Source: Gordius sp. MW1 | Taxonomy: Eukaryota > Nematomorpha > Gordioida > Gordea > Gordiidae | DNA: 64,000 nt | NCBI GenBank assembly: GCA_964036665.1 | Contig: OZ038533.1 | Location: 18,224,575-18,288,574, forward strand | Direction: 5' to 3' | Shown here: piece after piece, positions 8,201-64,000 of the stretch | How positions within the stretch are numbered: position 1 is the stretch's first letter | Layout of the letters: every line of letters begins with the position of its first letter | Notes under the pieces: model-generated | Told to the model about the DNA's origin: nothing | The model's database searches: none | The model's input: only the letters and a program-made list of their open reading frames with translations | Translations under genes and position numbers: made by a program

Positions 8201-8548
8201 AAATAGAATTAAGAATATTGTTATTAATTAATTATTTGTACAACGTTATGTTTATATCATTTAAATGCGGTTATTAACCTTTCGAAATACGTGCCCAAAT
8301 CCTGTCAAGGATATTTGAAAGTTAAAATAATTTGTTTTCGATTTTGCAAAACTAATTTGGCAAACGTTCAAAGAGCTAATTTACCTTTACACTGCCAAAA
8401 TTCACAAAATATTTTTAATCCTAACAAAATTTATTAATTTTAATTAAACTTTTTGCGAATAATAGCCAAAAATCAGCGGAAATGTACTTTATTTAGAGAG
8501 GCTATGAACTTTTAAATATTTGGGGGATCTTATAAACAAATGATCGCA
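5285..8548. other. Non-coding flank of microexon gene 1
   Basis: No host coding sequence is recognisable. A GC-rich scrap (TCGGGATGTTCGGTCAGCTC) lies at 5589-5710, and a foldback repeat at 7171-7335. The whole stretch is shared with copy 2 (57373-62600), where a MITE and a Helitron interrupt it. Short open frames such as 6798-7034 are AT-rich and unconserved in the second copy. Confidence 0.65.
7171..7335. repeat. Foldback repeat, about 165 bp
   Basis: The left arm (AGTTTTGTTTATCCGACC) and the right arm (AAGGTCGACCAAACAAAA) are imperfect inverted repeats with several GTCGACT-like steps between them. The same structure sits at about 61290-61450 in copy 2, so it predates the duplication. It could be an old MITE; no target duplication is clear. 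Confidence 0.5.
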
Positions 8549-8549
8549 C

Positions 8550-8558
8550 TATAAAAAG
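8550..8558 (+). promoter_or_regulatory. Candidate TATA box of microexon gene 1
   Basis: TATAAAAAG lies 99 bp upstream of the start codon, a plausible distance for a short 5' untranslated region. The homologous stretch of copy 2 (about 62615-62640) has a small deletion that removes it. TATAAAC at about 8531 is present in both copies and is an alternative. Confidence 0.45.
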
Positions 8559-8648
8559 ACAAACTAAGTTATTTATTCTACAATTTAATTCATTCGCAAT
8601 TATAAAACACTTGCTTAAAATACCGAAGGCTCTAATTTAATTTTTACA

Positions 8649-11600
8649 ATGAAGCTTTTCAGCATTATTTTAAGTACCTTGTTCCTAGCAACTGTCCTAT
8701 CTGGTAAATTTTAAGTTTAATATGTACGTATAATATCAATGCAAAACCTTTTAGCTCCCACAGCTGGTAATTTAATAATAAATACATCTTAAAAATTGGG
8801 GCAATATTGTTATTTAACTGTGTTTTTTTTCAAATTTTTATAGATCGTGAGGTTGAAGTAGTTACCCAAGCAGGTAAGCTTTTTTCCATACAATTTAATA
8901 TTTTCACTTTGTGAAATAGAAAATGTGTCTCATATTGTGACAAGTAAAAATTCTTTGTTTTAAGTTTTACTATAGTAAATTGAGCAAATATGAAATCTAT
9001 ATTTTTTTATCAATTAGCGCCCAAATCTGCAGCCGCTGGTGAGCGAATATAAATAGAATTTTTGGCTTAATTGTACCGCATAATATAAGTTTTTCACCTA
9101 TACATTTTTTGTTTTATACAACGCTGTCATTAATATAATTTATCCCCTAAATTGACAACATTCAAAATGATCAACCAGCTCCTGGTAAAAATTTTTTATA
9201 AACATTTCAACTGTTATTTAAATAAAATTGCATTTGATGTGCAAAAAATATGTCTTATTCGTTTATTTTTGAAAGAACATAATGTTTCAGGCAATTTAAA
9301 CTATATATCTATAATTTTTAATATACAATAATATTAATTATTGACGATTTAAAGCAAATTTAGTAAATGTCACTACAGAAGGTAAACTTTTATTAAAATT
9401 GTTTTTAAAAAAGGATACAAAATTATGTTATTTATTTCTAGTTTCAGAAATTCAAAACCAAACTAAATCTATTATATTTTTTCATTATTTTTTTAAAGCT
9501 GACAACGCATCTGGGGGTATAATAATTCTTACCTTCCGATTTGATTGTCAAAATTTTAAAACTTTATTATTTGGAACACTTCAAAATGAATAACATTGTT
9601 TTATAGTCACTCATGAGGAGGGTAAATAATATATAATAAATATTACAGATATTTGTGATTAATTAAATTACATTTGAATAAATAGCTAATGTTATAAGTA
9701 TTATTGACGCTTGAAATTTAAATCCATTTGACAATTAAAAATATTGAATTACAACGTTTTTTTTAATTCTAACTCCAAATACACATCATTAAGGTTTTGG
9801 CTGATTATAATCTTGTTTGAATATATTGAAAATACTAAAAAAAAAATTTATTATTTGTTGTTTCATTAATTAATTTTTATTAGGAGTTGATTGGGAAAAT
9901 ATAATTGCAGTAATACAGGATAATGAGGAATTCACACTTGTAGGTATACTAGGTCACATATATAACCTGTTATTGAATAGAAAAAGATTTAAATAGTTAC
10001 TAATTGTTCGCTTTGTTTTTAAATATCAGTTAATGACACTACCACAAGTATGTTAAAATTTTAAAAACAATTTAATTTTTTAAAAAAAATTTATTCGAAC
10101 ATCAAACAGCTGCATCGGAAGGTATTACATTTAAAAAATAAAATTGATTTATTTAAAAAACCCAATATCTTGTATAGAAGTCTAACACGATGAACCAGCT
10201 ATACCATAATATTTATAATTTTCAGTTAATTCAGCCACAAGTAATTTACATTATGTATTTAAAAATTACTAATAAATGTATTGATCACTCGTTATTTATA
10301 TCGAACGATATCTCCTAGCACCTGCTCCAACCACTTCAGAAGGTAAACATTCTTCCTTACATACCTCGAAAGCCTTATTGTTAAATAATATCTAAAATGC
10401 AAAAAATAATGTAACTTATTATAGAGCTTCAAAATGACGAACCAGCTGCCAATGCCACAGCTCACGCACACTGTATGAGAATTTTGCATTTAGTTGTATT
10501 AATATTTAATAAATATATAAATTTATCACAAATTAGCTTTATATTAATGTTATGTTTAGCTAACGACACTGACGGTATGATGTTCCCTTACAATATATTT
10601 AGAGTTTAATTTATAATTTAAGGCTTAAAATATTGGGATAAACATTCTTTGATTAAATGTTATAAATTTAGAGGACCAAACAATCGCTTTATTGACAGCT
10701 TTATCACCCATCTATAGTAAATTAATAACATTTTTTGTTTCTCTTTAATAATTAAGTCATTGAGACAACTAAACGTTAGTATAAATTTAAATTTATAAAA
10801 ATATGCCTTCCTATATTTTTAAATATATTTAATTATTTTAGTCGTGCCTGAGGAGGAAAGTATAAACATAAATAAGCTTTCAAATATGATCACCTTTACA
10901 TGTTTATTTACAGTTATTTATTCCTAGATACAAAATAAAAGATCATAAAATTATACAAATATAGCTTAATTTAATAATATAAATTAAACTTAACGCATCA
11001 TCTAGGACCACAGAATGATCATGCCAATGATGATACTACTACCAGAGAGCAACGGGCCTGCTTATGTGAGTCGGCCCGCCCGTAATAAAAATTTAAAAGG
11101 CAGGCCCGGGCCCGTCAAAATATTAAATTATAAGCCCGAGCCCGGCCCGCTAATTTTATACAAAGCCCGAGCCCGGCCCGGGCCGTTAAAATATTTTTGT
11201 TTTTTTGTCTAATTTTTTACCGATATGGCATAATATATATGTGTTAAATATGTTAATAAAAATATTGTAGAAATAATAAATTATTAATTCCCGATCAGAC
11301 GAGATCTTCTATCTTTTAAGAGGCGACCTACATGAAAAAAATTCTTTAACAAGTGTTACTTCGGGATATGTTTAAATAAAGTTACATGGCTTCTTTGCTT
11401 TTCCACCATTTTAAATTTTTAGGTTATTGATAAAATAAAATAACAGTGATATTTTACAAAAGTAACTTGAAGAAATAAATCTTAAAATTTGTTTTTAAAT
11501 TTGTTAATGAGTATATATATAAAAAGCAAAGGTTATCATTAATTTGGAGGGAATTATTTAGCCAGTTTCGCAATTATCCGATATATAGCAATAACCTAGA

Positions 11601-13150
11601 CAAGTTGCCCAAAGAAAAACATTAATATAGGTAATAATAAGTCGGACACAAAAACAATAATAAAATTTGGGCTCGGGTTAGGTCGAAAAAAGGAAAGCCA
11701 ATCAGCGGTCATTAGCTAGTGTTTTTGCGAGAGCAAAATAAAGGTCTTTAACAGAAGCATAAGTCCACAGCCATTAAAAACTCATAAAAGTTTCCAGGGC
11801 AATTATTGAAAAATTACAAGTTGGACAGGACGGACGGCCGGACAACAGACGGACGAACAACCAAAAGCGAGGTCATAAATTGCATTGCAACTAATAATCT
11901 TACATAATATTAAAATAATTCACTCAATATTGCTAGAGGGTATAAATGGGAAGGCAAGGATGAGCAGCTGCCCCCCCCCCCAAATCCTAAAATTTTTGAT
12001 CTAAAAAACATTTTTTGCCCTACCTAAACCGCCCCCTCTTAAATTGGCTACGTTCATGCCCGTGTATAAATATTTTTAACATTTATAATGCGGGTTGAAA
12101 TATTGCTGAATTAACGAACTAAGATGGAAATAAAATCTAACTAACCTTGTAAACTTAATATACATAAAATATTATAAATTAATAACAAAAAATTATTTTT
12201 TTTCTTATATATAATTTTCACATTTTTTTGTTTTAATCGACGTATCTATCGTCCCTTCTTTCGATATGGCCATAAACACCTTCTTATATACTAAATCTAA
12301 TTGATTTTATAACAGGCTTTTAACGGGCCTTAAGTATCTTTATGGCCGCCTGAGACCGTTAAGTTATATTACGGGCCCTCCAGGCCCGGCCCGTTGTTTT
12401 ATTTTTAAGCAGAAGCCCGTCCAAGCCCGGCCCGCGGGCCGGGCCGTGCAGGTCTCTAACTACTACGTTAATTACTATAATTAAAATAATTGATTACATT
12501 TTAATTTTATCCTTATTTCAGCAAACGTGACAGCCACAGGTATAACAACGTTTTAATCGACATGGCTCATCAATTGCTGTCATTTTTAGTAGCTCCTCAT
12601 AATGCCGAAGGTGATTTGATAACGAATATATATATTAAAACATGACATGGTCAATAATCGACTAAACAGAGCATTTTTATAAAATGTTGAGTAAAAAGAA
12701 CATTTTAGTATAGCAATTACATTTGGTGACCTTTTTCAGTTCCACTAACATGTAAATCAATCGAACTTTTGTAAGAACGGATAGATCTTAATTAGACAAC
12801 AATATTTATAATTTAAGAAGCAGAGATGTTTATATTATAAATACTAACTTTTTGTCCACTTTAAGTATGTATTTGCTTAGTCTGTGCCTCTATAATATTG
12901 GTTTACATATATAACTTATTAAAATCTTTTTTAGTGCAAAGCGATGGAGTCACCACTAGTGCAGGTTAACAGCCTAATGTAATGCATATGTCTCTGGCTT
13001 AAATTAAATTTCCTCTTCTTCTGTTTTTATGTTTTGCGTTATAAAACCTTTTTCAATATTCTTCATTTAATATTATTAAAAATAAATTTATTTTATTTTG
13101 TTTAACTAGCGCCCACAAACCAAACAGAAGATGCTCTAACGACCGTTTAA
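8649..13150 (+). CDS. Secreted microexon protein, gene 1 (22 exons, 201 aa)
   Basis: I do not recognise a family. Predicted exons: 8649-8703, 8755-8766, 8844-8873, 9018-9038, 9364-9381, 9499-9516, 9607-9621, 9884-9943, 10030-10047, 10110-10121, 10226-10240, 10319-10342, 10425-10472, 10560-10574, 10672-10716, 10842-10859, 11006-11065, 12532-12549, 12600-12620, 12740-12751, 12935-12964, 13110-13150 (TAA). Each internal exon has an AG acceptor and GT donor, a length of 12-60 nt divisible by 3, and phase 1 on both sides; the total is 606 nt. Exon 1 encodes an 18-residue signal peptide (MKLFSIILSTLFLATVLS). The mature chain is acidic and rich in Thr, Ala, Asp, Glu, Asn and Pro, with about seven N-X-S/T sequons (NVT, NAS, NDT, NAT, NDT, NVT, NQT) and one cysteine. 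I infer secretion and glycosylation. Exon symmetry lets any exon be skipped in frame. Weak points: exon 11006-11065 ends inside a hAT insertion, and 9442-9498 is a damaged further exon. The organisation recalls schistosome MEGs and aphid bicycle genes, but the bicycle cysteine motif is absent. Confidence 0.8.
11043..12458. mobile_element. GC-rich-ended hAT element inserted in an exon of gene 1
   Basis: The element starts CAGAGAGCAACGGGCC and ends, in reverse complement, TAGAGACCTGCACGGCCC. It is flanked by the perfect 8-bp duplication ACTACTAC (11035-11042 and 12459-12466). It is 1416 bp, with GGCCCGGCCC subterminal runs, a poly-C tract near 11983 and an ACGG cassette near 11830. No transposase frame remains. 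The same family, truncated, is at about 25700-27056 (shared motif CCCGATCAGA...GAGATCTTCTATC). Confidence 0.9.
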
Positions 13151-13365: not shown

Positions 13366-13923
13366 CACCCCAAGTCAATATATTAGCCAATTCATTAATT
13401 AATAATTTTTTACAATTAACAACATTTACATTTACATTCATGTATATGTCTTTATAATACAAACCTTGTTCTGTCATCATCTCTTTATAAATATATTTCC
13501 GCATATTTTTGATAAATAAATCAATTCTAAAAACTTTGTGTAAGAAAGATTAAACATAAGTGATAATGTAAAAGATTAATATTATTGATTTGGTTATTAT
13601 TATTAGATTTTATGATTTTTCATTATTATTAAATGGGATTTCAATCTTACCTTAAATCTCCGTTTAGTATTCATTTATCCTTTATTTAAATATACGATGC
13701 CCAAGAATTGGCGAATAATATAATACTTGAAAGATCTTATTTATTATAAGAGCAAAGAAAATATATCATGTGATGTATATCTACGCGTAAATAATGATGG
13801 GAATACTCGCTGTGTATCATGTGATGTATTTCTACACGTAAATAAATCGCGTAGAGAACGATGGGGGACGCGTATACGTCAAGATGCGTATGCATTAAAA
13901 TGCGTATACCTTAAGATGCGTAT
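13366..13923. other. Non-coding with short local repeats
   Basis: A block containing ATCATGTGATGTAT and CTAC(G/A)CGTAAATAA occurs twice (about 13768-13800 and 13817-13845). Three near-copies of AAGATGCGTATG / AAAATGCGTATAC follow at 13880-13923. The open frame at 13727-13942 simply reads through these repeats and is not supported as a gene. Confidence 0.55.
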
Positions 13924-32622: not shown

Positions 32623-33048
32623 TTACTTATTTAACACCATAATTAATGTAAAAACGTATACATTTATTTATTTATGCTCTTATAAAATAAAACAAATTAA
32701 TACATTATATATTATTAATCCTAAACCCCCAAATTCATATGTAATTACTTATTTAACACCATAATAAGTGTAAAAAGGTATACAGTTATTTATTTATACT
32801 CTTATAAAATAAAAACAAATTAGTACAGTATATAATATTAATTCTAACCCCCAAAAATTCAAACATATTTCTCCAAACATATATACCCATATTTAATAAT
32901 CCGATTGCAAGAGGCGGCGTTAGATCAATACTCGTGAGCTATAAAAAAAAATGTAATAATAAAGATATTATAATATAATTATAAAGAATTAATTACACTT
33001 GAAAAATTAAGGGAGTATAACGTCTTTGGGAATTAAAATATCATCAAA
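32623..33048 (+). other. Spacer between ORF1 and pol in Gypsy A
   Basis: A block of about 115 bp (AATTACTTATTTAACACCATAAT..., ending AACCCCCAAA) is repeated, at 32620-32735 and 32742-32855. No coding sequence is evident. Confidence 0.6.
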
Positions 33049-36000
33049 ATGTTGAATATATTTTTGATTTGGATTTTTGGGATTATTGTTAAAATAATAA
33101 CCAATTTTATACGATTCATTACTGTTACAGTAAATTTAGTACGTAAAGGACGAAAATACAAATTATGTGATCACATTGAAAACCTCAAGCTACATGATAG
33201 CTTAATTATTAAAAATACTCTAAAAATGGGGTATGTCATATATAGGGAGGACAAGTACCATATGATTTATCCAATGATTATAAAACGCGGAAGTGGGGCT
33301 AGTAGGCGTAAGGCGCGAGGAATCGATGTCAAGTCCTGGCAAACTACCTGTACTGGTCCTTCATTATATAATATAAAATCGATCCCACTTATGTTGGGGC
33401 GATTACGAATTAATTGGTGTAATATTACCAATTTTATTGTTTCGGAATTTAGTGATCATAATTATTTGCATCCTTATGCGTATGTTGAATCGTTAACTAC
33501 TCCTAGTGACGTTAATGAAAGCCTTTTTAAAACGGGAAGGTTTGAAATGTTAATAGAAATTAAAGGGTTAAAATGGGAAATAATTTTAGACACCTTAAAA
33601 TTAGCTCGTCGAGTGAAAAATGAGAACGCTTACGCCAAAGTTAATAATTGGATTAGTAAGTACAGGTACGGTGGTATGGGGAGAATATGGATGAATTGTA
33701 ATAATTTGTTAAATAACGAGATTAATAGTAAATTAAGAAAGATAAGGGACAAAAGGATGGGTAGATATAAATGGAAGGAAAAATTCTTAAATTGTGATAA
33801 AAAATATATGGTACAAAATAATCCCAACCGCGAACCTGAATTAAACGTTGTCAATGTTATTTTAGGTAAAGTCCCGACCATTGAAATACAGTTAAAAAAT
33901 GGCCCTGTAACCTTTATTTTTGATACGGGTTCTTCCGTAACGGTCATAAGCAAAAATGATTATTTTGCGAGTGGTATCGAAGGATTGTATACAGTTTCTA
34001 ACTTAGAAATTAAGGTTTTCAATAATGAAAAGGTGCGTTTAGTAGGGCAATGTGAGGCACGCGTAACTATAAATAACATTAGTAGAAATTTGATGTTATA
34101 CGTGTCGGAGACGGGGACGAGTAATATTTTCGGGTGGGACTGGATTCAGAGTTTTGACTTAGAGTGGCTTAAAATCATTAGAGGTATCCCTGGAGAATTT
34201 CGTAATTTTATTAAGGTAGAGGTGGTTTCTGAAAGGGGAGTTGAGGACCAAGCCCAAGACATATGGGACAAATTTCCGCTTATGTTTAAGGGGGGATTAG
34301 GATGTCTGAAACGCTTTGAGGCTACCATGAAATTTAAGGAAGGTGTCAAACCCAAATTTTGTCCGGCCAGAAGAGTGCCGTACGAGTGGAGATCGGAGAT
34401 TGAGGAAGAACTAAAAAAGTGGGTTAAGGAGGGGATAACAAAGCCTGTGGTATTTAGTTATTGGGCAACCCCACTGGTCCCCGTTAGGAAGGCGGACGGA
34501 AAATTGCGGCTCTGTGCTGATTTCCGCATTACCTTAAATCCTAATATTGAACTGGTCAGATTCCCGCTGCCAAGACTGGAAGAGATATTGGTTAAACTGA
34601 GTGGGTGTAAGGTGTTCTCCAAAATCGACTTCGCTACTGCCTACCTGCAATTAAAAGTGTCTGAAGAAATGAGTCAGAGTTTAACCATTAACACCCATTT
34701 AGGTCTCTTCACTTTTCTTAGGTTGCCTTTCGGCTTGAGCATATCGGCTCCCATTTTCCAAATGGCTATGAATTCCCTATTTCAGGGCTTAGAAGGTGTT
34801 TTCTACTATATGGATGATCTATTAATAGCGGGGCGAAGTGAAGCTGAACATAATTTCCGATTAATGGAGGTTTTAAGAATAATTGAAAATAATGGGTTAA
34901 GGGTGTCTAAAGAAAAATGTATATTTAGAGTAAACAAAATATCCTATCTGGGACATATTATTGAAAATGGAACAATCCGACCTCTTGAAAACAAGGTAGC
35001 CGCGTTAAGGGACATTCGAGCCCCCAAATCTAAAAAAGAATTGCAATCTTTTCTGGGATTAATAAATTACTACCATAAATATATTCCAAGGTTTGCGGCC
35101 CGAGCAAGGACATTATATGATCTCATAAAAATCAATACCATCTTTAAGTGGGGCGAAGAGGCAGAAGCCATATTTCAAGGTCTTAAAGAGTGCGTCGTAA
35201 AAGCTCCAGTCTTAATTGGCTTTAACCGAGATAAGGAAATACATATCGTAGTAGATGCGTCGCAAGAGGCGGTCGGGGGGGCATTGCTACAAGTTATAGA
35301 GGGTATGGAACGACCCGTAAGCTACTTTTCACGCAAATTCCGGGATCCCGAACTACGGTACTCCGTAATCGAAAAGGAAGCGTTGGCTGTGGTCTATGGC
35401 CTAGTTAAATGTCGGGAATATATCGTAGGTAAACACTTTACCTTGTACACTGATCACAAGCCCTTGGTATCGCTATTTCGGAAGGACAATCACGATCTGA
35501 TGTTATCTTCGCGACTGCAGAGATGGTTGGTGGTGGTCGGAGCTTTTGATATGGACATAGCGTATCGTAAGGGAAATCGCAACTATCTGGCGGACACATT
35601 ATCCCGCATGTATGGGGAAGGTAAAACTGCGGATCCTGAAACGAATGAAATTGACAATTCGGTGGAGGGAATATATAATCAAGACGATACTCCCTGCGTA
35701 TTGCATATATCCGAAGGAGGTCCCATCTCCTGGAACGATGTCAAAGAGGCGTCAACGGAGGACGTTGAAATCCAGAAATTGCGGGAGTGCCTTCAAGGAC
35801 AGGCAGAATGGCCATTGGCGCTTATCGCTTACCAGAGGGTTAAAAAACAATTAAATTTAGTAGGGGGTGTAAATAAAGGTTTGCGATTAGTAATCCCCAA
35901 AGGTCTTCGTCAAGAAGTGCTAAAAGAGCTCCATCTCGGACATCAAGGAATTGTGAAAATGAAGAGATGGGCCCGAGAATATGTTTGGTGGCCCCAAATA

Positions 36001-36765
36001 ACTAAAGACATAATGGAGGTATGTCAGAGTTGCGAGGCGTGTAATAGAATCGCGGCTATGCCTCCAAAAGTAAAGTGTACGCGTTGGGTCATAACACGTC
36101 ATCCGTGGGACAGGATACATGTCGATTTCTTTGAATGTCTAGGGAAGGTCTACTTTCTTGTTGTCGATGCGTGCACGAAATGGGTAGAATATGAAAGGGT
36201 AAACGGTAGTTCTACGCGAATAGTAATAAGGGTCTTAAAAGGTTTAATAGCGAAGTATGGTTTGCCAAAAACCATAGTTTCGGATGGAGGGCCGGCTTTT
36301 ACCAGTCGACCATTTGGGGAATTTTGCAAAAGTCATGGGATGGAGCACATCATAACGGTGCCGTATCACCCTAAATCCAATGGCCAAGCTGAACGTATGG
36401 TAGGGGTGGTTAAGGGGTGGCTATTAAAAGAAAAAGGTGGAGGGGGTGAACAATGGCTCATGAAGTTGATGTATCACAACGCGGTCGGCCAAGATGGGAA
36501 GTCACCATCATCCAAATTTTTGGGACGTACAGGTCGTTTGCGATTAGATCACCTGATGCCCGAAGAGGGTAGGAGGAGGGAAGGAATGCCATTACGTTTT
36601 AAATTGGGGGACATGGTTTGGATGAGAATGTATCAGGGGCCCAATAAATGGGTAAAGGGGATAATTATAGCCGTAGAAGGGGGGTACCGGTTAAGAGTGG
36701 CCATGGAAACGGGCGTCGAGGTTTGGCGACATGTGGATCAGTTGAAGAAAAGGGGAGGGGTGTAG
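33049..36765 (+). CDS. pol: Gypsy A Pol polyprotein (1238 aa)
   Basis: A single frame runs from an ATG at 33049 to TAG at 36763. Residues 3-30 are hydrophobic, unusual for Pol. Residues 50-280 are unassigned. The protease motif FDTGSSVTVIS is near residue 290; RT has LRLCADFRI (485) and the catalytic YYMDD (585). RNase H has VVDASQEAVGGAL (about 733) and YTDHKPL (800). The integrase H2C2 finger (HLGHQG...CQSCEAC) is near 960-1000, then core residues in HVDFF (1025), VSDGGPAF (1077) and NGQAERM (about 1113). All catalytic motifs are intact and no stop interrupts the frame. Pol copies the element RNA to DNA and integrates it. The N-terminal 280 residues may replace a Gag region (inference). Confidence 0.95.
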   Translation: MLNIFLIWIFGIIVKIITNFIRFITVTVNLVRKGRKYKLCDHIENLKLHDSLIIKNTLKMGYVIYREDKYHMIYPMIIKRGSGASRRKARGIDVKSWQTTCTGPSLYNIKSIPLMLGRLRINWCNITNFIVSEFSDHNYLHPYAYVESLTTPSDVNESLFKTGRFEMLIEIKGLKWEIILDTLKLARRVKNENAYAKVNNWISKYRYGGMGRIWMNCNNLLNNEINSKLRKIRDKRMGRYKWKEKFLNCDKKYMVQNNPNREPELNVVNVILGKVPTIEIQLKNGPVTFIFDTGSSVTVISKNDYFASGIEGLYTVSNLEIKVFNNEKVRLVGQCEARVTINNISRNLMLYVSETGTSNIFGWDWIQSFDLEWLKIIRGIPGEFRNFIKVEVVSERGVEDQAQDIWDKFPLMFKGGLGCLKRFEATMKFKEGVKPKFCPARRVPYEWRSEIEEELKKWVKEGITKPVVFSYWATPLVPVRKADGKLRLCADFRITLNPNIELVRFPLPRLEEILVKLSGCKVFSKIDFATAYLQLKVSEEMSQSLTINTHLGLFTFLRLPFGLSISAPIFQMAMNSLFQGLEGVFYYMDDLLIAGRSEAEHNFRLMEVLRIIENNGLRVSKEKCIFRVNKISYLGHIIENGTIRPLENKVAALRDIRAPKSKKELQSFLGLINYYHKYIPRFAARARTLYDLIKINTIFKWGEEAEAIFQGLKECVVKAPVLIGFNRDKEIHIVVDASQEAVGGALLQVIEGMERPVSYFSRKFRDPELRYSVIEKEALAVVYGLVKCREYIVGKHFTLYTDHKPLVSLFRKDNHDLMLSSRLQRWLVVVGAFDMDIAYRKGNRNYLADTLSRMYGEGKTADPETNEIDNSVEGIYNQDDTPCVLHISEGGPISWNDVKEASTEDVEIQKLRECLQGQAEWPLALIAYQRVKKQLNLVGGVNKGLRLVIPKGLRQEVLKELHLGHQGIVKMKRWAREYVWWPQITKDIMEVCQSCEACNRIAAMPPKVKCTRWVITRHPWDRIHVDFFECLGKVYFLVVDACTKWVEYERVNGSSTRIVIRVLKGLIAKYGLPKTIVSDGGPAFTSRPFGEFCKSHGMEHIITVPYHPKSNGQAERMVGVVKGWLLKEKGGGGEQWLMKLMYHNAVGQDGKSPSSKFLGRTGRLRLDHLMPEEGRRREGMPLRFKLGDMVWMRMYQGPNKWVKGIIIAVEGGYRLRVAMETGVEVWRHVDQLKKRGGV

Positions 36766-45375: not shown

Positions 45376-46062
45376 TTGGTCCTTCGAGCCGGATACCAGA
45401 TAAGACTGCATAATTTGAAAAAAAAGACAGCATTTGTACAAAGCCTTGCTAGATTTATGGACTATGTAGAATCATCTGAAGACATAATTAATATTGAAGA
45501 GATTAAATGGTTACGTTCACGGTATATAGATTTTCAAGAACAAGTTGATGAAAATGATGAAAACTCTCATGAGCAAAAGGAGATTGAAAATAATTACTTT
45601 GAAACAATATCAAAGGCACAGAGTCTCATTAACCAATCTCACACCAACAATCTTTCACACATCATCACATCATATTTCAAGGTCAAACATCATAATTCCC
45701 ACATCTTCACATAATATTTCACAATTCAACAATATGGCTATAATGATTGCCTTAAGTTTTTGCAAAAAAAAACTTTAAATATGGACTAAACGTTAACTGA
45801 TTGTGCAAATAAAAAGAGTGTAGGTATGTTTAACAGTCAGCAGCGCCATGATAAATATTGCCTAGCATACCCCTGGTCTCGAACACTCAATTAAAAGCTC
45901 CACTAATTAAGAGATCACGACCACCGAAAGCTTTAGTGCGTCTTTTGAAAATAGTTAGCAAAAACAGACACCTGCACAAAGCTTGTCCATCATTCAATCT
46001 CACACCCAACAATCTCTCAACCATCATCAACATCTGGGAAACTACAACTTCCACGAATAGAA
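45376..46062 (+). pseudogene. BEL Gag N-terminal fragment, plus copy
   Basis: The frame from 45376 contains ARFMDYVESSEDI, IKWLRSRYIDFQEQ and NYFETISKAQSLI, the helical N-terminal part of BEL/Pao Gag. It shifts frame after 45650. Compared with the minus copy, about 245 bp of extra sequence (about 45735-45990) interrupts it. It is inactive. Confidence 0.75.
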
Positions 46063-46930
46063 ATGCCTCACTTTAACGGGAATTATGAGAATTCTGTAAA
46101 AGCTGCTGCATCAAATCAATTCCAATACATCCCAGGACTTTCCCCGCTACAAAACTCTTTTTCAACGTCCCACTCGAATAACAGCAGTTATACCATGAAC
46201 CATTTGAAAACGTTGAATTTTATGTCTTCCACCTCTTCAAACACCCTCAACTATTCTCCACTCCCACCCATACCCTCCTCTAACCTCAAAGACGTTCCCC
46301 TACCAACACTGCCATTGATGCTCATTACAGGGCTTTGGACCACGATGATAGGCACAAGTCTAGAAAGTCCAACGATGTACCCACTTCAGGCTCTAAGGAT
46401 CACCGTCATACTTCGGTTAGCAGGGATCGCGAGCATCGTGGTGAGAAGCGTGAAAGGGGTCGGGATGGCGATAGGAATCATAGCAAAGGGGACAGAGATT
46501 ATGATTCGGACAAAAGGCCACGACACAAGGATTCTTCCCCCCTCAACAACAGCAGAAGAGGGAGCGAAAGAGAGGACAGAGATCGGAGAGGGAGGAATGA
46601 GGGTAGTGATTCTTACAAAAAAGGGTCACGCGAGACTACCTCCGATAAGAGGGAAAGCATTTCGCAACGGCATAAATCCTCAAGCAACGCTAGCACCTAC
46701 CAGGGTCCTGTAGCCCGCAAAGCCGATTGCATCACCGTTCTCTCAAGAACGTTGTGGATAGGTAGAGTGCCTAAGAATTCCACTTAAGCATTTCTTCTTA
46801 ATGCTTTAAAACGTGTTATATCGAGGAAAGGTAAAATGACCCAACAGGATCAGGTTAAAAAATTGGGAGATTCTTACAAACAAGCTTTCATCCGATTTCT
46901 ATCTCTTAAAAATAAGACAGTATTGAAACA
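46063..46930 (+). pseudogene. SCAF-like host fragment within BEL, plus copy
   Basis: After the Gag motif PHFNGNY the coding sequence switches to NQFQYIPGLSPLQNSF and then, in another frame (46335-46787), a long Arg/Ser/Asp/Glu stretch, ending TVLSRTLWIGRVPKN. A small deletion near 46315 breaks the frame relative to the minus copy. The end resembles the RNP2 strand of the RRM in SCAF4/SCAF8-type CTD-binding factors. Positions 46788-46930 continue as non-open text shared by both copies. Confidence 0.6.
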
Positions 46931-46959
46931 TTTTTGGGTATCCAACCACAAAAAAAAAG

Positions 46960-47503
46960 TTGACACTAGCAGAACAGGGCTTTAATTGGCATTTTATTCC
47001 ACCAAGAGCACCTCATTTTGGTGGTTTATGGGAAGCAGCCGTCAAATCTACCAAACATCATTTGAGAAGAGTATTGAAACAAGCCCTATTAACTTATGAA
47101 GAAATCACCACACTTTTGATTCAAATCGAAGCCATCATTAATTCAAGACCTCCTACACAATTGTCAGATCCAAATGACTTATCATGCCTAACTTTCGCGC
47201 ATTTTTTTATTGGCTCTTCTTTCACTTCTATCTCTGAACCTATTTGGACAACTGCAAAATTGAATACCTTATCTCGATGGCAGCACACAGAATTATTACG
47301 ACAGCAATTTTGGCGCCGATGGTCAAGGGAGTATTTAAATCAATTACAGATGCGTAAAAAATGGTAAAAATCATTTCAGAATGTAAAGGTCGAACAACTT
47401 GTAATAATTTAAGGAGGATAATACGCCACCTCTCAAATGGCCTTTAGCCCGAATTCAAGAAATTCACCCAGGCTCCGATAGAGTAACCAGAGTAGTTACT
47501 TAA
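46960..47503 (+). pseudogene. BEL integrase C-terminal fragment, plus copy
   Basis: The frame contains FIPPRAPHFGGLWEAAVKS and LLIQIEAIINSRP, the conserved end of the BEL/Pao integrase core, then RQQFWRRWSREYLNQLQ. A stop at 47365 is followed by shifted remnants of the C-terminal domain to about 47503. Protease, RT and the first part of the integrase are deleted upstream. Confidence 0.85.
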
Positions 47504-47548
47504 TGTCCGTATATGTTGTTCATGTTATGTGTTAACATGTGTTAAAGT
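47504..47548 (-). repeat. Inverted 45-bp start of BEL LTR at the palindrome centre
   Basis: It is the reverse complement of 45053-45100 with a few differences. It marks the start of the 3' LTR of the minus-strand copy, cut off after 45 bp where it meets the plus copy. Confidence 0.8.
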
Positions 47549-48180
47549 ACTATCATCCAAATTGGTAGATCCGTGAAGAATATCATCCATAGGTAATACA
47601 TGCAGCCTTGTTACTGGCCTTTTGATCAAACCAGCCGATGTTCGTAAAGTAACTACTCTAGTTACTCCATCGATGCCTGGGTGAATTTCTTGAATACGGG
47701 CTAAAGGCCCTTTGAGAGGTGGCGTATTATCCTCCTTAATTATTACAAGTTGTTCGTCCTTTACATTCTGAAATGATTTTTCCATTTTTTACGCATCTGT
47801 AATTGATTTAAATACTCCCTTGACCATCGGCGCCAAAATTGCTGTCGTAATAATTCTGTGTGCTGCCATCGAGATAAGGTATTCAATTTTACAGTTGTCC
47901 AAATAGGTTCAGAGATAGAAGTGAAAGAAGAGCCAATAAAAAAATGCGCGAAAGTTAAGCATGATAAGCATTTAGATCTGACAATTGTGTAAGAGGTCTT
48001 GAATTAATGATGGCTTCGATTTGAATCAAAAGTGTGGAGATTTCTTTATAAGTTAATAGGGCTTGTTTCATACTCTTCTCAAATGATGTTTGGTAGATTT
48101 GACGGCTGCTTCCCATAAACCACCAAAATGAGGTGCTCTTGGTGGAATAAAATGCCAATTAAAGCCCTGATTTGCTAGTG
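47549..48180 (-). pseudogene. BEL integrase C-terminal fragment, minus copy
   Basis: Frames at 47525-47785 (LVIIKEDNTPPLKGPLARI, then KRPVTRLHVLP) and 47955-48158 (LLIQIEAIINSRP) give the integrase tail and part of the core. The C-terminal piece has the typical BEL/Pao order, with KEDN...PL...P...VHPG-like text. Missing upstream domains and frameshifts make it inactive. Confidence 0.85.
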
Positions 48181-48357
48181 TCAACTTTTTTTTTTGTGGT
48201 TGGATACCCAAAAATGTTTCAATACTGTCTTATTTTTAAGAAATAGAAATCGGATGAAAGCTTGTTTGTAAGAATCTCCCAATTTTTTAACCTGATCCGG
48301 TTGGGTCATTTTGCCTTTCCTCGCGATAAAACGTTTTAAAGCATTAAGAAGAAATGC

Positions 48358-49473
48358 CTAAGTGGAATTCTTAGGCACACTACCTATCCACAACGTTCTT
48401 GAGAGAACGGTGATGCAATCGGCTTTGCGGGCTACAGGACCCTGGTAGGTGCTAGCGTTGCTTGAGGATTTATGTTGTTGCGAAATGTTTTCCCTCTTAT
48501 CGGAGGTAGTCTCGCGTGACCTTTTTTTGTAAGAATAACTACCCTCATTTTTCGCTCTCCGATCTCTGTCCTCTCTTTCGCTCCCTCGTCTGCTGTTGTT
48601 GAGGGGGGGGGGGGAAGAATCCTTGTGTCGTGGCCTTTTGTCCGAATCATAATCTCTGTCCCCTTTGCTATGATTCCTATCGCCATCCCGACCCCTTTCA
48701 CGCTTCTCACCACGATGCTCGCGATCCCTGCTAACCGAAGTAAGACGGTGATTCTTAGAGCCTGAAGTGGGTACATCGTTGGACTTTCTAGACTGGTGCC
48801 TATCATCGTGGTCCAAAGCCCTGTAATCAGCATCAACTTGAGCTATGGATGGCAGTGTTGGTAGGGGAACGTCTTTGAGGTTAGAGGAGGGTATGGGTGG
48901 GAGTGGAGAATAGTTGAGGGTGTTTAAAGAGGTGGAAGACATAAAATTCAACGTTTTCAAATGGTTCATGGTATAACTGTTCTTATTCGAGTAGGACGTT
49001 GAAAAAGAGTTTTGTAGCGGGGAAAGTCCTGGGATGTATTGGAATTGATTTGATGCAGCAGCTTTTACAGAATTCTCATAATTCCCGTCAAAGTGAGGCA
49101 ATTCTATTCGTGGAAGTTGTAGTTTCCCAGATGTTGATGATGGTTGAGAGATTGTTGGTGTGTGAGATTGAATGATGATATGATGTTTGAATTGTGAAAT
49201 ATTATGTGATGATGTGGGAATTATGATGTTTGACCTTGAAATATGATGTGATGATGTGTGAAAGATTGTTGGTGTGTGAGATTGGTTGATGAGGCTCTGT
49301 ACCTTTGATATTTTTTCAAAGTAATTATCTTCAATCTCCTTTTGCTCATGAGAGTTTTCATCATTTTTATCAACTTGTTCTTGAAAATCCACATACCGAG
49401 AACGTAATAATTTAATCTCTTCAAGTCTTAATTTTATATTAATTATGTCCTCGGATGATTCTTGTAATATCAT
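48358..49473 (-). CDS. Gag/SCAF-like chimeric ORF (371 aa) in BEL, minus copy
   Basis: This is an uninterrupted minus-strand frame. Residues 1-130 are BEL/Pao Gag (LRLEEIKLLRSRYVDFQEQ, KLQLPRIELPHFDGNY). From about residue 133 it becomes NQFQYIPGLSPLQNSF, a Ser/Thr/Asn/Pro region, and at 225-335 an RS/RD/RE-rich tract (SRDREHRGEKRERGR...). It ends ADCITVLSRTLWIGSVPKN, resembling the opening of an RRM in SCAF4/SCAF8-like factors, which bind RNA polymerase II CTD. The junction is inside a codon-level continuous frame, so host exon sequence was probably captured by the element (inference). The N-terminus is cut by Gypsy D at 49463; the ATG at 49471-49473 is supplied by the Gypsy D LTR. Confidence 0.7.
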   Translation of the reverse strand: MILQESSEDIINIKLRLEEIKLLRSRYVDFQEQVDKNDENSHEQKEIEDNYFEKISKVQSLINQSHTPTIFHTSSHHISRSNIIIPTSSHNISQFKHHIIIQSHTPTISQPSSTSGKLQLPRIELPHFDGNYENSVKAAASNQFQYIPGLSPLQNSFSTSYSNKNSYTMNHLKTLNFMSSTSLNTLNYSPLPPIPSSNLKDVPLPTLPSIAQVDADYRALDHDDRHQSRKSNDVPTSGSKNHRLTSVSRDREHRGEKRERGRDGDRNHSKGDRDYDSDKRPRHKDSSPPPLNNSRRGSEREDRDRRAKNEGSYSYKKRSRETTSDKRENISQQHKSSSNASTYQGPVARKADCITVLSRTLWIGSVPKNST

Positions 49474-51970: not shown

Positions 51971-54158
51971 ATGCCTAGAAAACCATCTGATATCTGGAAA
52001 CATTTTGGTAGACATACATCCTCCAATAAGAAAGGCTTTATTGCCATCTGCAACTATTGCAACCATAAATATGACTTCCCCAACCCAACAAAAATGTCTA
52101 TCCATATACAAAAATGCCCAGAATATGCAAGTGAAACAAAATGCTCAGAACTAGAAGTTTTTTCAATATCCTCAGAATCATCTAAAACTTTTTCTGCGTC
52201 AGAACACCCAACTGTAACAGACCAATGTTACACGATCCAAATTCTTGTACTGTATAAGCGATCTGACATTCCATTTTCTTATTCGATCCAAAAAATAACG
52301 AAGCGCCGATTAGTGTTTTTCGCATTCGGAAAAACACAAATCGTAAGAAATAAACAAAATTTCTTACTCACGTTTTCATATTGTGATTTCGGACTCGCGA
52401 GGGCAGGTTTTGTAGGGTTGGGGTTAGGGTTAAGTTATTTTAGGTTCAAGATACATAATTACTTTTTTTGGATCGAATAAGAAAATGGAATGTCAGATCG
52501 CTTATACAGTCCAAGAATTTGGATCGTGTAACATTGGCCACTGTAACAACACCTGAGTTAACAACAAATTTTAACACTTCAAAACAATCCACATCAAATA
52601 TTAATCAATATTTCGATAGCATGACTCCAGTGCAACAAGAAAGATTAAATGAAAAGCTTGCACTGGCTATCTATATGTCAAATTGTCCGTTTAACATAAC
52701 AGAAAATTATTATTGGAAGGACTTTTTCAAATCTATAAAACCATCCTTCAGAATTCCACCAAGAAAGGCAATAGGAGGTTCTTTGCTAAATGACCAATTT
52801 GACAAGATCAAAGCAGTTATAAATGAAAAACTAGAATCAGGTTCTAATTTTACATTAATTAGTGATGGTTGGACAAACATTAGGGGGGAGTCCATAATCA
52901 ATTTTATAATAATGACACCGAAACCCATATTTTTAAAATCTATAGATACAGGGACGAATGCCCATACTGGGGATTATATAGCTGATCAATTCCTAAAGGT
53001 GATGGAAGAAATTGGCACTCAAAAATTTGTTGCCATAGTTACTGACAACGCTAAAAATATGAAGAAGGCTTGGGAAATAGTTAAGTCTAAACATCCTTCA
53101 ATTGAGTGCTTTGGCTGTGCAGCTCATGGGCTTAATTTATTAATAAAAGCAACAAAATTCCTACCATCCAAAATATTACAGCTAAAGTTAAACAAATTAT
53201 AAAATACATTAAATTTAATACAATATTATCATCAACTTTTAAAGAAAAACAATGTAACAAAAATCGACTCACAACTTTGAAAATACCCTGTCCAACAAGG
53301 TGGGGTGGTATAGTTATAATGCTTAATAGTTTCCTAGTAAACAAAGATACTTTGCAGGAACTAGCTTTAACAGATACATTTGCTGATCGAAGCAAACGTT
53401 TAAATTTGCTTGATAATGATGTTTTTTGGGAGAAAATAAAAAAAAATACATTTTTTTTAGATGTAATTTTGACCAAAATAACTTGCATAGAAAGTGACTC
53501 TGGATTATTGTCTGATGTACCGGAAGCATTTCATACTATTAAAGCCCATTTCAGCGAAATTTCTAGTAAGAAATTTAGCCTAATTGATGCAAGTGTTATT
53601 AAAAAATTCGTGAGCAAAAGGAAATCGTTTTGCTGTAAGGATTTTCATATGGCAGCTAACTTGCTTGATCCACGTTATTGTGGAGTCAACCTTACTACAA
53701 AAGAAATAGCTGAAGCAATTAACGCTATCAAGATTATTTCTCAAGGCTATAATTTCAATATAGGCCAAGTTATTGCCAATTTGGCAGAATTTCGTGCTAA
53801 AGACGGGTTGTTTGCTGAGCGGTCAATATGGGATAGCGCTAGTTACATTTCACCCTTGACGTGGTGGAAAGGCTTGTGCACTAACCAACCCTTATCTGAA
53901 ATTGCCGTGAAACTCTTTTCAATTCCAGCTACCAGTGCTGCCACAGAAAGAATTTGGTCCACATTTGGTTATGTACATTCTAAATCAAGAAATCGAATGA
54001 AAAACGACAAGGTGAAAAAGCTAGTGTCCATAAGGCACAACATGCACTTGAAAAGTAGTATCAATTTTAATGCAAAAGCGCGCTCAATATCTTTATCTGA
54101 TGAATCAATTTCATCGCTAAATGACGATAGTGACAGTTTAGATATTGACAATTTTTAA
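51971..54158 (+). pseudogene. hAT E transposase with BED finger (broken)
   Basis: The first frame (51971 on) is a BED zinc finger: SDIWKHFGRH, CNYCNHKYDF, then IHIQKC. It is broken at 52211 by the MITE and resumes after 52548. The catalytic core shows LISDGWTNIRGES (first D), AIVTDNAKNMKKAW (second D) and CAAHGLNLLIK. A single-base frameshift lies between about 53165 and 53277, after which RWGG and the C-terminal ATSAATERIWSTFG (catalytic E and dimerisation region) follow to TAA 54156. All catalytic motifs are present, so decay is recent. Confidence 0.88.
52220..52539. mobile_element. Long-arm MITE (320 bp) in the hAT transposase
   Basis: The left and right arms (each about 65 bp, starting GACCAATGTTACACGATCC / GGCCAATGTTACACGATCC in reverse) are nearly perfect inverted repeats. 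They are flanked by the 9-bp duplication ACTGTAACA (52211-52219 and 52540-52548). A 9-bp duplication with long arms fits Mutator-like elements (inference). The centre includes two TTAGGG-like steps. Its right arm provides an ATG at 52468 in frame with the downstream transposase. Confidence 0.85.
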
Positions 54159-59485: not shown

Positions 59486-59842
59486 TCTATATATATAAAG
59501 TAAAGTGTATGTATATATGTATATATGTATATATGTATGTAAGGGCTAATCTCTGAAACTACCGGCCCGATTCGCGCGAAAATTTACCCCTAGGTTTCCA
59601 GGGCGGCCAGGGGTAAAATAGCTTTTTCAGAATTCTAAAATTCCTTTTAATTTTTGAGATATTGGGTTTTATGCGTTTTGACGTTCAATAAAATGTCAAT
59701 CAAACGCACCTCCTCGCGTTCGTCGAAAATTTGAATATACAGACAGTTCTTTAGTAAAGGTGTATCACTTTTAATATTTTTTTAAAAAGTAGCTTTAAAA
59801 ATATCGTACATTTCATGATCCCTACCTATGTGCCATTTTAAT

Positions 59843-60480
59843 TCAAGCGCCTAATTTAAGATTAATTCTGTAATTTTGATCAATATTCCATATTTATTGG
59901 TTATTTAAATTCAACAACCAGATAAGAATTTAGATGTATATTTTTAAAAAATAATTTACTTAATTCTTTCTTATTTATATTGTTATTTTTTTTTAAATTT
60001 ATTAATTTATTTATATTTTACAAATTTTCAGACTACCTTAGTGTTTTAAACGTCAAGCGCCTAATTCAAGATTAATTCTGTAATTTTGATCAATATTCCA
60101 TATTTATTGGTTATTTAAATTCAACAACCAGATAAGAATTTAAATGTATATTTTTAAAAAATAATTTACTTAATTCTTTCTTATTTATATTGTTGTTTTT
60201 TTAAATTAATTAATTTATTTATATTTTACAAATTTTCAGACTACCTTAGTGTTTTAAACGTATATCGTTACACATGTGAATTTTTTTTAAATTAATTAAT
60301 TTATTTATATTTTACAAATTTTCAGACTACCTTAGTGTTTTAAACGTATATCGTTACACATTTGCATCCCTACCTATGTACCATTTTAATTCAAGCGCCT
60401 AATTCAAGATTAATTCTGTAATTTTGATAAATATTCCATATTTATTGGTTATTTAAATTCAACAACCAGATAATAATTTA
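59843..60480. repeat. About 210-bp tandem repeats inside the Helitron
   Basis: The block starting AAGCGCCTAATTCAAGATTA recurs at about 59844, 60054 and 60394, and the segment AATTTTCAGACTACCTTAGTG recurs at three places between 60023 and 60335. The array consists of near-identical copies of about 210 bp with one partial unit. Confidence 0.75.
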
Positions 60481-60540
60481 GATGTATATTTTTAAAAAAG
60501 AATTTACTTATTTCTTCCTTATTTATAGCCGATTCGCGCT

Positions 60541-61040
60541 TTTAGATAAGTCTTATAAATAGGTTATCCTTATTTAATTTGACCACGGGAAAAACTGTCC
60601 CAAACGGTCCTCCAAAAAAACTGTCCCTAGACTATGCCAACTTTTACCTCCTCGCCTTCCCCGCTAACGTGCCGGTAAATTATTTCATATATGACCCCAT
60701 TTTAGATAAGTCTTATAAATAGGTTATCCTTATTTAACCACGGGAAAAACTGTCCCAAACGGTCCTCCAAAAAAACTGTCCCTAGACTATGCCAACTTTT
60801 ACCTCCTCGCCTTTCCCGCTAACGTGCCGGTAAATTATTTCATATATGACCCCATTTTAGATAAGTCTTATAAATAGGTTATCCTTATTTAACCACGGGA
60901 AAAACTGTCCCAAACGGTCCTCCAAAAAAAACTGTCCCTAGACTATGCCAACTTTTACCTCCTCGCCTTTCCCGCTAACGTGCCGGTAAATTATTTCATA
61001 TATGACCCCATTTTAGATAAGTCCTATTAATGGGTTATCC
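60541..61040. repeat. About 156-bp tandem repeats inside the Helitron
   Basis: TTTAGATAAGTC begins units at 60541, 60701, 60856 and 61012. Each full unit contains CCACGGGAAAAACTGTCCC and CTCGCCTTYCCCGCTAACG, and the last unit is partial and diverged. High identity between units implies recent expansion. Confidence 0.85.
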
Positions 61041-61095
61041 TTATTTAACCACTTAAGGCTTGAGCCAAAGCAACGCTTGGCCGGGCACAGCTAGT

Positions 61096-62696: not shown

Positions 62697-64000
62697 ATGA
62701 AGCTTTTCAGCATTATACTAAGTACCTTGTTCCTCGCAAATGTCCTATCTGGTAAATTTTAAGTTTAATTTGTACGTATAATATCAATGCAAAAACCTTT
62801 TAGCTCCCACAACTGGTAATTTAATAATAAATATTATCTTAAAAATTGGGGCAATATTGTTATTTAACTGTGTGTTTTTTCAAATTTTTATAGATCGTGA
62901 AGTTGAAGCAGTTACCCAAGCAGGTAAGCTCCTTTTCCATACAATTTAATATTTTCACTTTGTGAAATAGAAAATATCTCTCATGTTGTTACAAGCAAAA
63001 ATTCATTTTTTTTAATTCTGACTACAGTAAATCGAGCAAATATGAAATCTATATTTTTTTTATCATTTAGCGCCCAAATCTGCAGCCGCTGGTGAGCGAA
63101 TATAAATTTTTTGGCTTAATTCTAGCTCATAATTTTAATTTTTCAAATGTATATTTTGTTTTACAACGTTTTAATTAATATATTATCCCCTAAAGTTTTT
63201 AACATTCAAAATGATCAACCAGCTCCTGGTAAAAATATTCTATAAACATATTTATTCAAATAAAAATTCTATTATGGTGTACAAGAATTCTGTCTTATTT
63301 GTTTATTTTTAAAAGAACATAATGTTTAAATATTTTAAACAATATATCTATACTGTATAATAATATCAATTAATGAAGATTTAATCTTAAATGTAATAAA
63401 TGTCACTGCAAAAGGGAAACTTTAATTAAAATTATTTTTAAAAAAGGATATAAAATTATATTATTTATTAATAGTTTCAGAAATTCAAACCGACCAACCT
63501 AGTCTTACAACTACCCCCGTCCCAGGTATGTATATTATTAAGATTAAAGTATAAACAAACAAATCTATTATATTTGTTTTCATAATTTTTTTTTCAAGCT
63601 GTCAACGCATCTGGGGGTATAATAATTCTAACCCTCCGATTTGATTATCAAAATTTTAAAATTGTGTTATTTGGAACACTTGAAAATGAATAACATTGTT
63701 TTATAGTCACTCATGAGGAGGGTAAATAATATATAATAATAATTATTGCAATTTGTGATTGATTAAATTACATAACTCTAATTATATTTAAAATTATATT
63801 TGGTGGTTATTTCAAAATGGTGAACCTGTTACAACTTCAGCCCTTCTTGCTAGTAAAACAGTTATTATTACCAGATAATATTAGAATTTAATATATTTAA
63901 TTAAATAATTTGTCAATGAAATGAATAAAATTTGAATTTGCTCAAAAAATTTAATTTAGCTAATGTTACGAGTATTATTGGCGCTTGAAATTTAAATCCA
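62697..64000 (+). CDS. Secreted microexon protein, gene 2 (5' part, runs off window)
   Basis: This is a paralogue of 8649-13150. Predicted exons: 62697-62751 (signal peptide MKLFSIILSTLFLANVLS), 62804-62815, 62894-62923, 63071-63091, 63196-63228 (33 nt), 63475-63525 (51 nt), 63599-63616, 63707-63721 and possibly 63841-63852. All have AG/GT borders, phase 1 and lengths divisible by 3. The 63196 exon (encoding NIQNDQPAP) lost its acceptor in gene 1. The 63475 exon (Thr/Pro-rich end, SLTTTPVP) is truncated by deletion in gene 1. Conversely, the gene 1 exon at 9364-9381 has lost both splice sites here (63407-63425). The two genes therefore encode different exon combinations. Confidence 0.75.

Follow-up and report, generated by a model that had tools for sequence, protein, structure and literature searches.

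The subject of this study is a 64,000-nucleotide stretch of hairworm DNA (the window; C7:18224575-18288574 of an assembly of 211.8 Mb in 12 contigs) and a gene within it, g1, at window positions 8649-13150. We found that g1 is one long-form copy of a small family of hairworm genes that are built from symmetric phase-1 microexons. The products are predicted to be secreted acidic glycoproteins, and we consider it on balance probable that they act at the interface with the arthropod host. Comparison of the copies demonstrated the family, its anatomy, its common phase, the depletion of indels in exons, and the gain and loss of exons between copies. The conclusion that g1 is a real gene was based on this nine-locus, paralog and indel comparison and not on agreement of phase, which the initial annotation had put forward as very unlikely to arise by chance.

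Nine related loci and the conservation of their exons

DNA searches identified nine loci on three chromosomes, a number that is a lower bound because these searches score the best candidates only. Five of the loci (a, b, g1, c and d) lie within 160 kb on C7, two (e1 and e2) lie at 1.71-1.72 Mb of C7, and there is one each on C5 (17.23 Mb) and C1 (2.09 Mb), which are called here by those names. All nine have in common the upstream region, the signal-peptide exon and the first microexons. The first exons had been said to be conserved in a second copy, and this was confirmed. The copy, paralog c, starts at 62697, and its start and first ten predicted exons (62697-64000, forward strand) show 82-90% identity in aligned blocks and run past the end of the window; seven further loci were found outside the window. 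The long paralogs c and d could be aligned with g1 along the gene, the main blocks being 82-92% identical and a single short block of c 76%. For the other six loci the identity was about 70-80% over the upstream region and the first exons, and e1 and e2 also matched g1 around exons 12-14 (66% identity). Searches with later parts of the genes returned these loci again, together with a dispersed repeat flanking e1 when e1 was the query. At 8303-9082 of the window, the upstream region and the first introns came close to the exons in their degree of conservation, across loci on the three chromosomes.

The splice sites of g1 were compared with those of the long paralogs. In c, the acceptor AG was kept in 15 of 16 cases (exons 2-17) and the donor GT in 16 of 17 (exons 1-17), the count for c covering exons 1-17 only, with its 3' exons left out. 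In d, 13 of 16 acceptors and 15 of 17 donors were kept up to exon 17, as were all four acceptors and all three donors of the four 3' exons. The number of indels inside exons was compared with that obtained when the exon map was shifted circularly (2334 shifts). When exon 16 was cut back to the 7 nt that it has in common with c, none of the 38 indels between g1 and c was found in exons; the shifts gave a mean of 6.5 and none of them a count as low (0/2334). When exon 16 was taken in full and exons 5 and 6 were left as originally read, the exons contained 2 of the 38, and 30 of the 2334 shifts were as low. Between g1 and d, 2 of 38 indels were in exons when exon 16 was trimmed (34/2334 shifts as low). 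Exon substitutions between g1 and c numbered 27 in comparison to 45 expected, with 2.1% of shifts as low.

A dynamic-programming gene finder that allowed any phase, trained on the splice sites and composition of g1, was used to predict the exon chains. With the codon term included, it gave 23 exons in c, with 22 of 22 junctions in phase 1, and 22 exons in d, with 21 of 21; the predicted c chain closes with an exon that is not the real end of the gene, this end being past the stretch analysed. Across g1, c and d the predicted exon number was 22-24. When splice scores only were used, 22 of the 23 junctions of c were still in phase 1 and the chain scored 239.7, whereas 100 shuffles gave a mean of 75 and no score above 118. 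The corresponding score of g1 was 275.9 (shuffle maximum 157). We also scanned 215.8 kb, all of it in or beside family loci, and found 94 candidate starts with a chain among the ATGs that passed a crude hydrophobicity filter. Scores were 50.5-202.8 for the eight family starts that are intact, and at most 45.3 for starts outside the family loci.

Agreement of phase was rejected as proof of a gene, because shuffled sequence yields similar bare chains. With bare AG/GT borders, a phase-1 chain of up to 35 exons could be drawn through the real region, and 200 shuffles gave a mean of 27.4 exons (standard deviation 3.3, maximum 36); chains in the other phases reached 28 exons (phase 0) and 30 exons (phase 2) in the real region. 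Two stricter splice patterns gave 24 exons in phase 1 and 19-20 in phases 0 and 2, with shuffle means of 12-13 exons (about 13 for phases 0 and 2) and phase-1 shuffle maxima of 19 and 21. The g1 region has a surplus of good splice sites, which is strongest in phase 1 yet present in the other phases. Since the phase argument failed as stated, the evidence had to come from comparison with relatives. The length of the bare chains in shuffles is what would be expected if the microexons were a reading artefact, AT-rich DNA having AG/GT pairs enough for a chain anywhere. However, the paralogs retain the splice sites, the exons are depleted in indels, the long-form chains outscore the shuffles by far and also outscore the other starts in the 215.8 kb, and complete short forms are built on the same plan; we consider an artefact very improbable.

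A number of results weigh against the reading of g1 and its relatives as microexon genes directed at a host. With exon 16 taken whole, 4 of the 38 g1-d indels were in exons and 201 of the 2334 shifts (8.6%) were as low, which is a weak depletion, and the indel test scores exons wholly lost from g1 as intron indels. Exon substitutions between g1 and d numbered 41, where 47 were expected and 27% of the shifts gave as few, and the ranges of dN/dS span 1 both for g1-c (0.36, bootstrap 0.12-1.11) and for g1-d (0.97, bootstrap 0.49-2.57). On splice scores only, phase-1 junctions made up 16 of 23 in d, 4 of 7 in C5 and 6 of 9 in C1, and the short-form scores overlapped those of the shuffles (68.8 at locus a, shuffle maximum 72.7). 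As the models were trained on g1, the result for g1 is circular and those for c and d are not independent. The stricter splice patterns exceeded the shuffle mean in the real region for phases 0 and 2 as well. Damage to the window copy consists of a deletion in exon 16 and an insert in exon 18, intact copies being present elsewhere, and what links the product to a host interface is analogy.

Exon anatomy, short forms and damage

Read exon by exon, g1 runs from the ATG at 8649 to the TAA at 13150 in 22 exons with AG/GT borders and with every junction in phase 1. This chain had been described in the initial annotation and was readable as such; our own reading gives 609 nt and 202 residues, where 606 nt and 201 residues had been stated. 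Of the size range given earlier for the internal exons (12-60 nt), the upper bound was retained, and the lower bound became 6 nt in our re-reading through the doubtful exon 5. Twenty of the 21 introns measure 50-324 nt. From the sequence we infer that the genes of the family are transcribed and spliced.

The exons and signals of g1 given below are on the forward strand. The upstream region common to the family loci (8303-8648) contains a TATA box, TATAAAAAG (8550-8558), about 90 nt 5' of the ATG. This box is intact in six of the eight aligned loci (e1 not included), mutated in b and deleted in c. Exon 1 (8649-8703, 55 nt) encodes the putative signal peptide MKLFSIILSTLFLATVLS, judged as such from its sequence, and ends in phase 1; it is hydrophobic and open, with a GT donor, in eight of the nine loci (55 or 58 nt), and in b it has a 1-nt deletion. 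Exon 2 (8755-8766, 12 nt) and exon 3 (8844-8873, 30 nt, 27 nt in C1) have AG/GT borders in all eight loci with a chain read. Exon 4 (9018-9038, 21 nt) is kept in c and C5, measures 15 nt in C1 and is without an acceptor in d. The doubtful exon 5 (9179-9184) is very short, with 6 nt, and has AG/GT borders in c and d and was picked by the gene finder. Exon 6 is probably 18 nt long (9364-9381), a 27-nt version from 9355 being possible; d retains the inner acceptor only, and in c the splice sites are gone. Exon 7 (9499-9516, 18 nt) has AG/GT borders in c and d, and exon 8 (9607-9621, 15 nt) is identical in c and d. At 9686-9697 the phase-free gene finder predicted an extra 12-nt exon in g1, c and d that is absent from the chain read by eye.

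Exon 9 (9884-9943) has AG/GT borders in c and d and is strongly altered in d, with 14 nonsynonymous changes and one synonymous change in comparison to g1. It measures 60 nt in g1 and 63 nt in d. This exon of d is altered far more than the adjoining introns, and the excess of change may be due to selection or to gene conversion. Exon 10 (10030-10047, 18 nt) has AG/GT borders in c and is without a donor in d. Exon 11 (10110-10121, 12 nt) has both borders in c and d, whereas exon 12 (10226-10240, 15 nt) has them in c, is broken in d, and has a 15-nt counterpart in a, e1 and e2. Exon 13 (10319-10342, 24 nt), exon 14 (10425-10472, 48 nt, beginning ELQNDEPA), exon 15 (10560-10574, 15 nt) and exon 17 (10842-10859, 18 nt) all have AG/GT borders in c and d, and exon 13 has a 24-nt counterpart in all five short forms read. 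In the 3' part of the gene, exon 19 (12522-12539, 18 nt), exon 20 (12590-12610, 21 nt) and exon 21 (12935-12964, 30 nt) have AG/GT borders in d; exon 21 is 33 nt there, an in-frame difference of 3 nt like that of exon 9. Exon 22 (13110-13150, 41 nt including the stop TAA) is identical in d, with its acceptor AG retained. A likely poly(A) signal, AATAAA (13515-13520), is found 3' of the stop at a common position in six of the seven aligned loci (g1, c, a, e1, e2 and C5) and is changed in d.

Exons 16 and 18 had been taken as intact, and comparison with c and d contradicted this. Exon 16 of the chain (10672-10716) has lost 35-38 nt by deletion relative to d and c, which have a 42- or 39-nt exon with an earlier end; as first read, the exon extends into sequence that is intron in c and d. 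Of exon 18, the 5' part survives (11006-11042), and the exon is split by an insert of 1416 bp (11043-12458) that is not present in c and d, where the 45-nt exon is unbroken. The exon 18 of the chain (11006-11065) consists of insert sequence from 11043 onward. By the reading of its ends and of the adjoining 8-bp repeat, the insert appears to be hAT-like. The repeat ACTACTAC stands on both flanks of the insert and may predate it. In addition, a 51-nt exon and another short exon (12 nt predicted) of c and d are lost or truncated in g1. Near paralog c we observed direct repeats of 155-162 nt on its 5' side (window 59818-61042), and an LTR-type retrotransposon, recognized by eye, between two exons in its 3' part (stretch L012, 3640-8160).

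The loci a, e1 and e2 are short forms with full ATG-to-stop chains of 7-8 exons and 82-86 amino acids, all in phase 1 and all with AG/GT borders. C1 is open for 98 codons if a 12-nt exon with the acceptor GG is counted, and for 94 codons without that exon. In C5, one exon, also with the acceptor GG, does not keep the frame in our reading. We regard the final exon of the short forms (beginning ELQND in e1 and e2) as equivalent to exon 14, which is internal in the long forms. Directly before it stand counterparts of exon 13 and, in a, e1 and e2, of exon 12. The long forms have extra cassettes with the related motifs QTDQP, QHDEP, QNDEP, QNDQP, QNDHA and xNxTT. Because the DNA similarity between cassettes is short and weak, we only infer that the long forms were built by exon duplication. 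In d, C5 and C1, splice sites are gone at individual exons and the remaining exons are in frame; these single-exon losses match the behaviour expected of symmetric same-phase exons.

In the mechanism we propose, each gene consists of a signal-peptide exon, mostly with a TATA box 5' of it, followed by a string of symmetric phase-1 microexons. Because all internal exons are whole codons in the same phase, exons can be gained by duplication, lost by deletion or skipped with the frame kept. The change probably went from short to long: the short forms appear to have grown into long forms of more than 20 exons, the added cassettes being of the xQNDxPxxTT or the xNxTT kind, both of which recur.

Predicted products and known systems

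The mature product of the 22-exon g1 chain has a pI of 4.05, seven sequons, 29 threonines among 184 residues and one cysteine. For the d product the pI is 4.33, with seven sequons and one cysteine, and for the partial c product 4.11, with nine sequons and no cysteine. In a charge-hydropathy plot g1 and c were on the disordered side of the line and d was just on the ordered side. A protein database search with the g1 product gave 1981 candidates, none with E <= 1, and a search with one short-form product gave no candidate. In Pfam the g1 and d products had no match and a short form had two matches below the cut-off, and the PDB sequences gave a single weak match to a flagellar protein (E 0.31). 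The earlier description of a small, acidic, sequon-rich product behind a signal peptide and without a matching family was borne out. The signal peptide would direct secretion, and the largely disordered products would probably be N-glycosylated at the sequons and O-glycosylated at threonines. As a variable disordered chain facing the arthropod host, such a product would most likely be used as a coat, decoy or lubricant.

A likeness to schistosome MEGs and aphid bicycle genes had been pointed out, and we found that it holds for the organisation and does not extend to the sequence, for which no relative was found. According to the available parts of the published accounts, the central coding part of MEGs is mostly made of microexons shorter than 36 bp between longer end exons, and these are mostly symmetric, with 79% in that paper's set (PMC4671649). 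MEG products are described there as small and secreted, and many are rich in threonine, serine and proline and disordered (PMC4671649, PMC10526429). The hairworm genes are alike in having the signal peptide in the first exon, mostly symmetric central microexons and small predicted-secreted products. In the predicted c chain 16 of the 21 internal exons are <=36 nt, and every internal exon is symmetric in the predicted c and d chains and in a, e1 and e2. They differ from MEGs in belonging to another phylum, in having no sequence match, in being phase 1 throughout and in their introns, which apart from one are the 50-324 nt given above for g1 as compared to up to 5 kb in MEGs. The motif that follows the signal peptide in MEGs, as given in the accessible text of PMC10526429, was absent by inspection.

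Bicycle genes have about 17 exons on average, small internal exons that are nearly all in phase 2, CYC motifs in many of their proteins and strong divergence, as far as the available part of the source goes (PMC9168663). The hairworm genes resemble them in their many small internal exons in one phase (a predicted 22-24 exons per gene in g1, c and d) and in their strong divergence. In contrast, the phase is 1 and not 2, there is no CYC motif, the three long-form products have none or one cysteine, and nine hairworm loci were found as compared to the 476 bicycle genes first described. We conclude that the hairworm family is MEG-like by convergence and is not MEG. Conotoxins are another case of secreted peptides with a conserved signal exon and a variable mature part. 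The hairworm genes are conotoxin-like in the conservation of their upstream region, signal exon and first introns and in the divergence of the later exons, whereas the long forms have few cysteines and vary by exon cassettes.

Of the alternatives to a host-directed family with convergent architecture, homology to the MEGs or the bicycle genes is one to which we give almost no credence. It is suggested by the similar architecture alone, while the protein, Pfam and PDB searches found no sequence relative, and in the case of the bicycle genes the difference of phase and the missing CYC motif also argue against it. It is a serious possibility, somewhat short of an even chance, that g1 itself is a decaying gene and that the family works via its other copies, the insert and the deletion marking loss of function. 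Both lesions are missing from c and d, and decay is also seen in other copies, namely the 1-nt deletion in b, the splice sites lost at several exons in d and the out-of-frame exon in C5. However, the remaining exons of g1 are open, with no frameshift, the skipping of symmetric exons leaves the frame intact, and indels are depleted in exons in the g1-c comparison. A structural or reproductive role (cuticle, cyst wall, egg or seminal glycoproteins), with variability for reasons other than a host, is also a real possibility, to which we give slightly less weight. The acidic, sequon-rich composition with much threonine, alanine and proline would suit mucin- or coat-like glycoproteins equally. Nothing specific speaks against this role; the Pfam search found no structural-family domain in the products.

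The preferred role at the host interface is suggested by the analogy with MEGs and by the way of life of the worm. Hairworms are parasites of arthropods and alter their behaviour. As the genome is that of a hairworm, any host interaction would be one in which the worm acts on the arthropod that it parasitizes, and the salivary-gland setting proposed earlier was not supported. Going further, we regard it as a doubtful, speculative idea that hairworms, separately from flukes and aphids, evolved a frame-locked microexon system in which symmetric phase-1 cassettes are added, lost and skipped to give variable proteins, and that these are released into the arthropod host for survival or steering. 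A third case unrelated to the other two would suggest that strings of one-phase microexons represent a repeatable route to fast-changing secreted proteins; the family would also provide concrete candidate genes for what hairworms release into their hosts. To our knowledge and in the literature consulted, the animals with microexon genes for secreted proteins are blood flukes and the aphids with their relatives, all of them host-dependent. Microexon genes are easily overlooked, as sequence searches come back empty and the exons are mostly 6-60 nt. No microexon genes were reported from Nematomorpha in the literature searched, to which most subscription papers did not belong. One paper naming both 'Nematomorpha' and 'microexon' deals, by its title and abstract, with an unrelated demethylase topic; among 20 papers listed out of 158 that touched on microexons or hairworm genera, none combined the two. 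No such genes were mentioned in the titles and opening lines of the abstracts of the papers listed (10 of 14) on hairworm secretion and transcriptomes.

The hairworm genome and other features

The contig C12 is the mitogenome, with 14,798 bp and an A+T content of 65.7%; its genes were named by eye from translations. It contains perfect inverted repeats with arms of 95 bp in atp6, 108 and 53 bp in nad1, and 60 and 98 bp in nad5, and nad2 and nad6 have internal inverted repeats of 97-100%. The stretch read as nad5 spans three frames. In the available part of a published comparison, all four hairworm species studied have such repeats, with atp6, nad1 and two places in nad5 as common sites (PMC6649704). 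These coding palindromes mark the genome as that of a hairworm, phylum Nematomorpha. An arbuscular fungus, a bryozoan, a parasitoid wasp, a barnacle and a centipede were rejected as sources, and the gene order is unlike that of the centipede Strigamia. Other hairworm genomes are given as 201 and 288 Mb in the accessible text of PMC11603191.

A run of short tandem repeats was observed 5' of cox1 in the mitogenome, and cox1-like copies on five other contigs, one of them near-full on C8, fit nuclear copies of the mitogenome. At C3:8090756-8092698 there is an HSP70 gene; to judge from its frame jumps, its introns may measure only about 30-40 nt, less than in the microexon genes. Elsewhere in the window, a large inverted repeat (45494-49424) holds two copies of an SR-rich open frame that ends RRM-like by eye; one copy of this frame had no match in Pfam. 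A frame for a Ty3/Gypsy-type polyprotein was found at 33037-36765 and a DUF659 frame of hAT type at 52459-53202.

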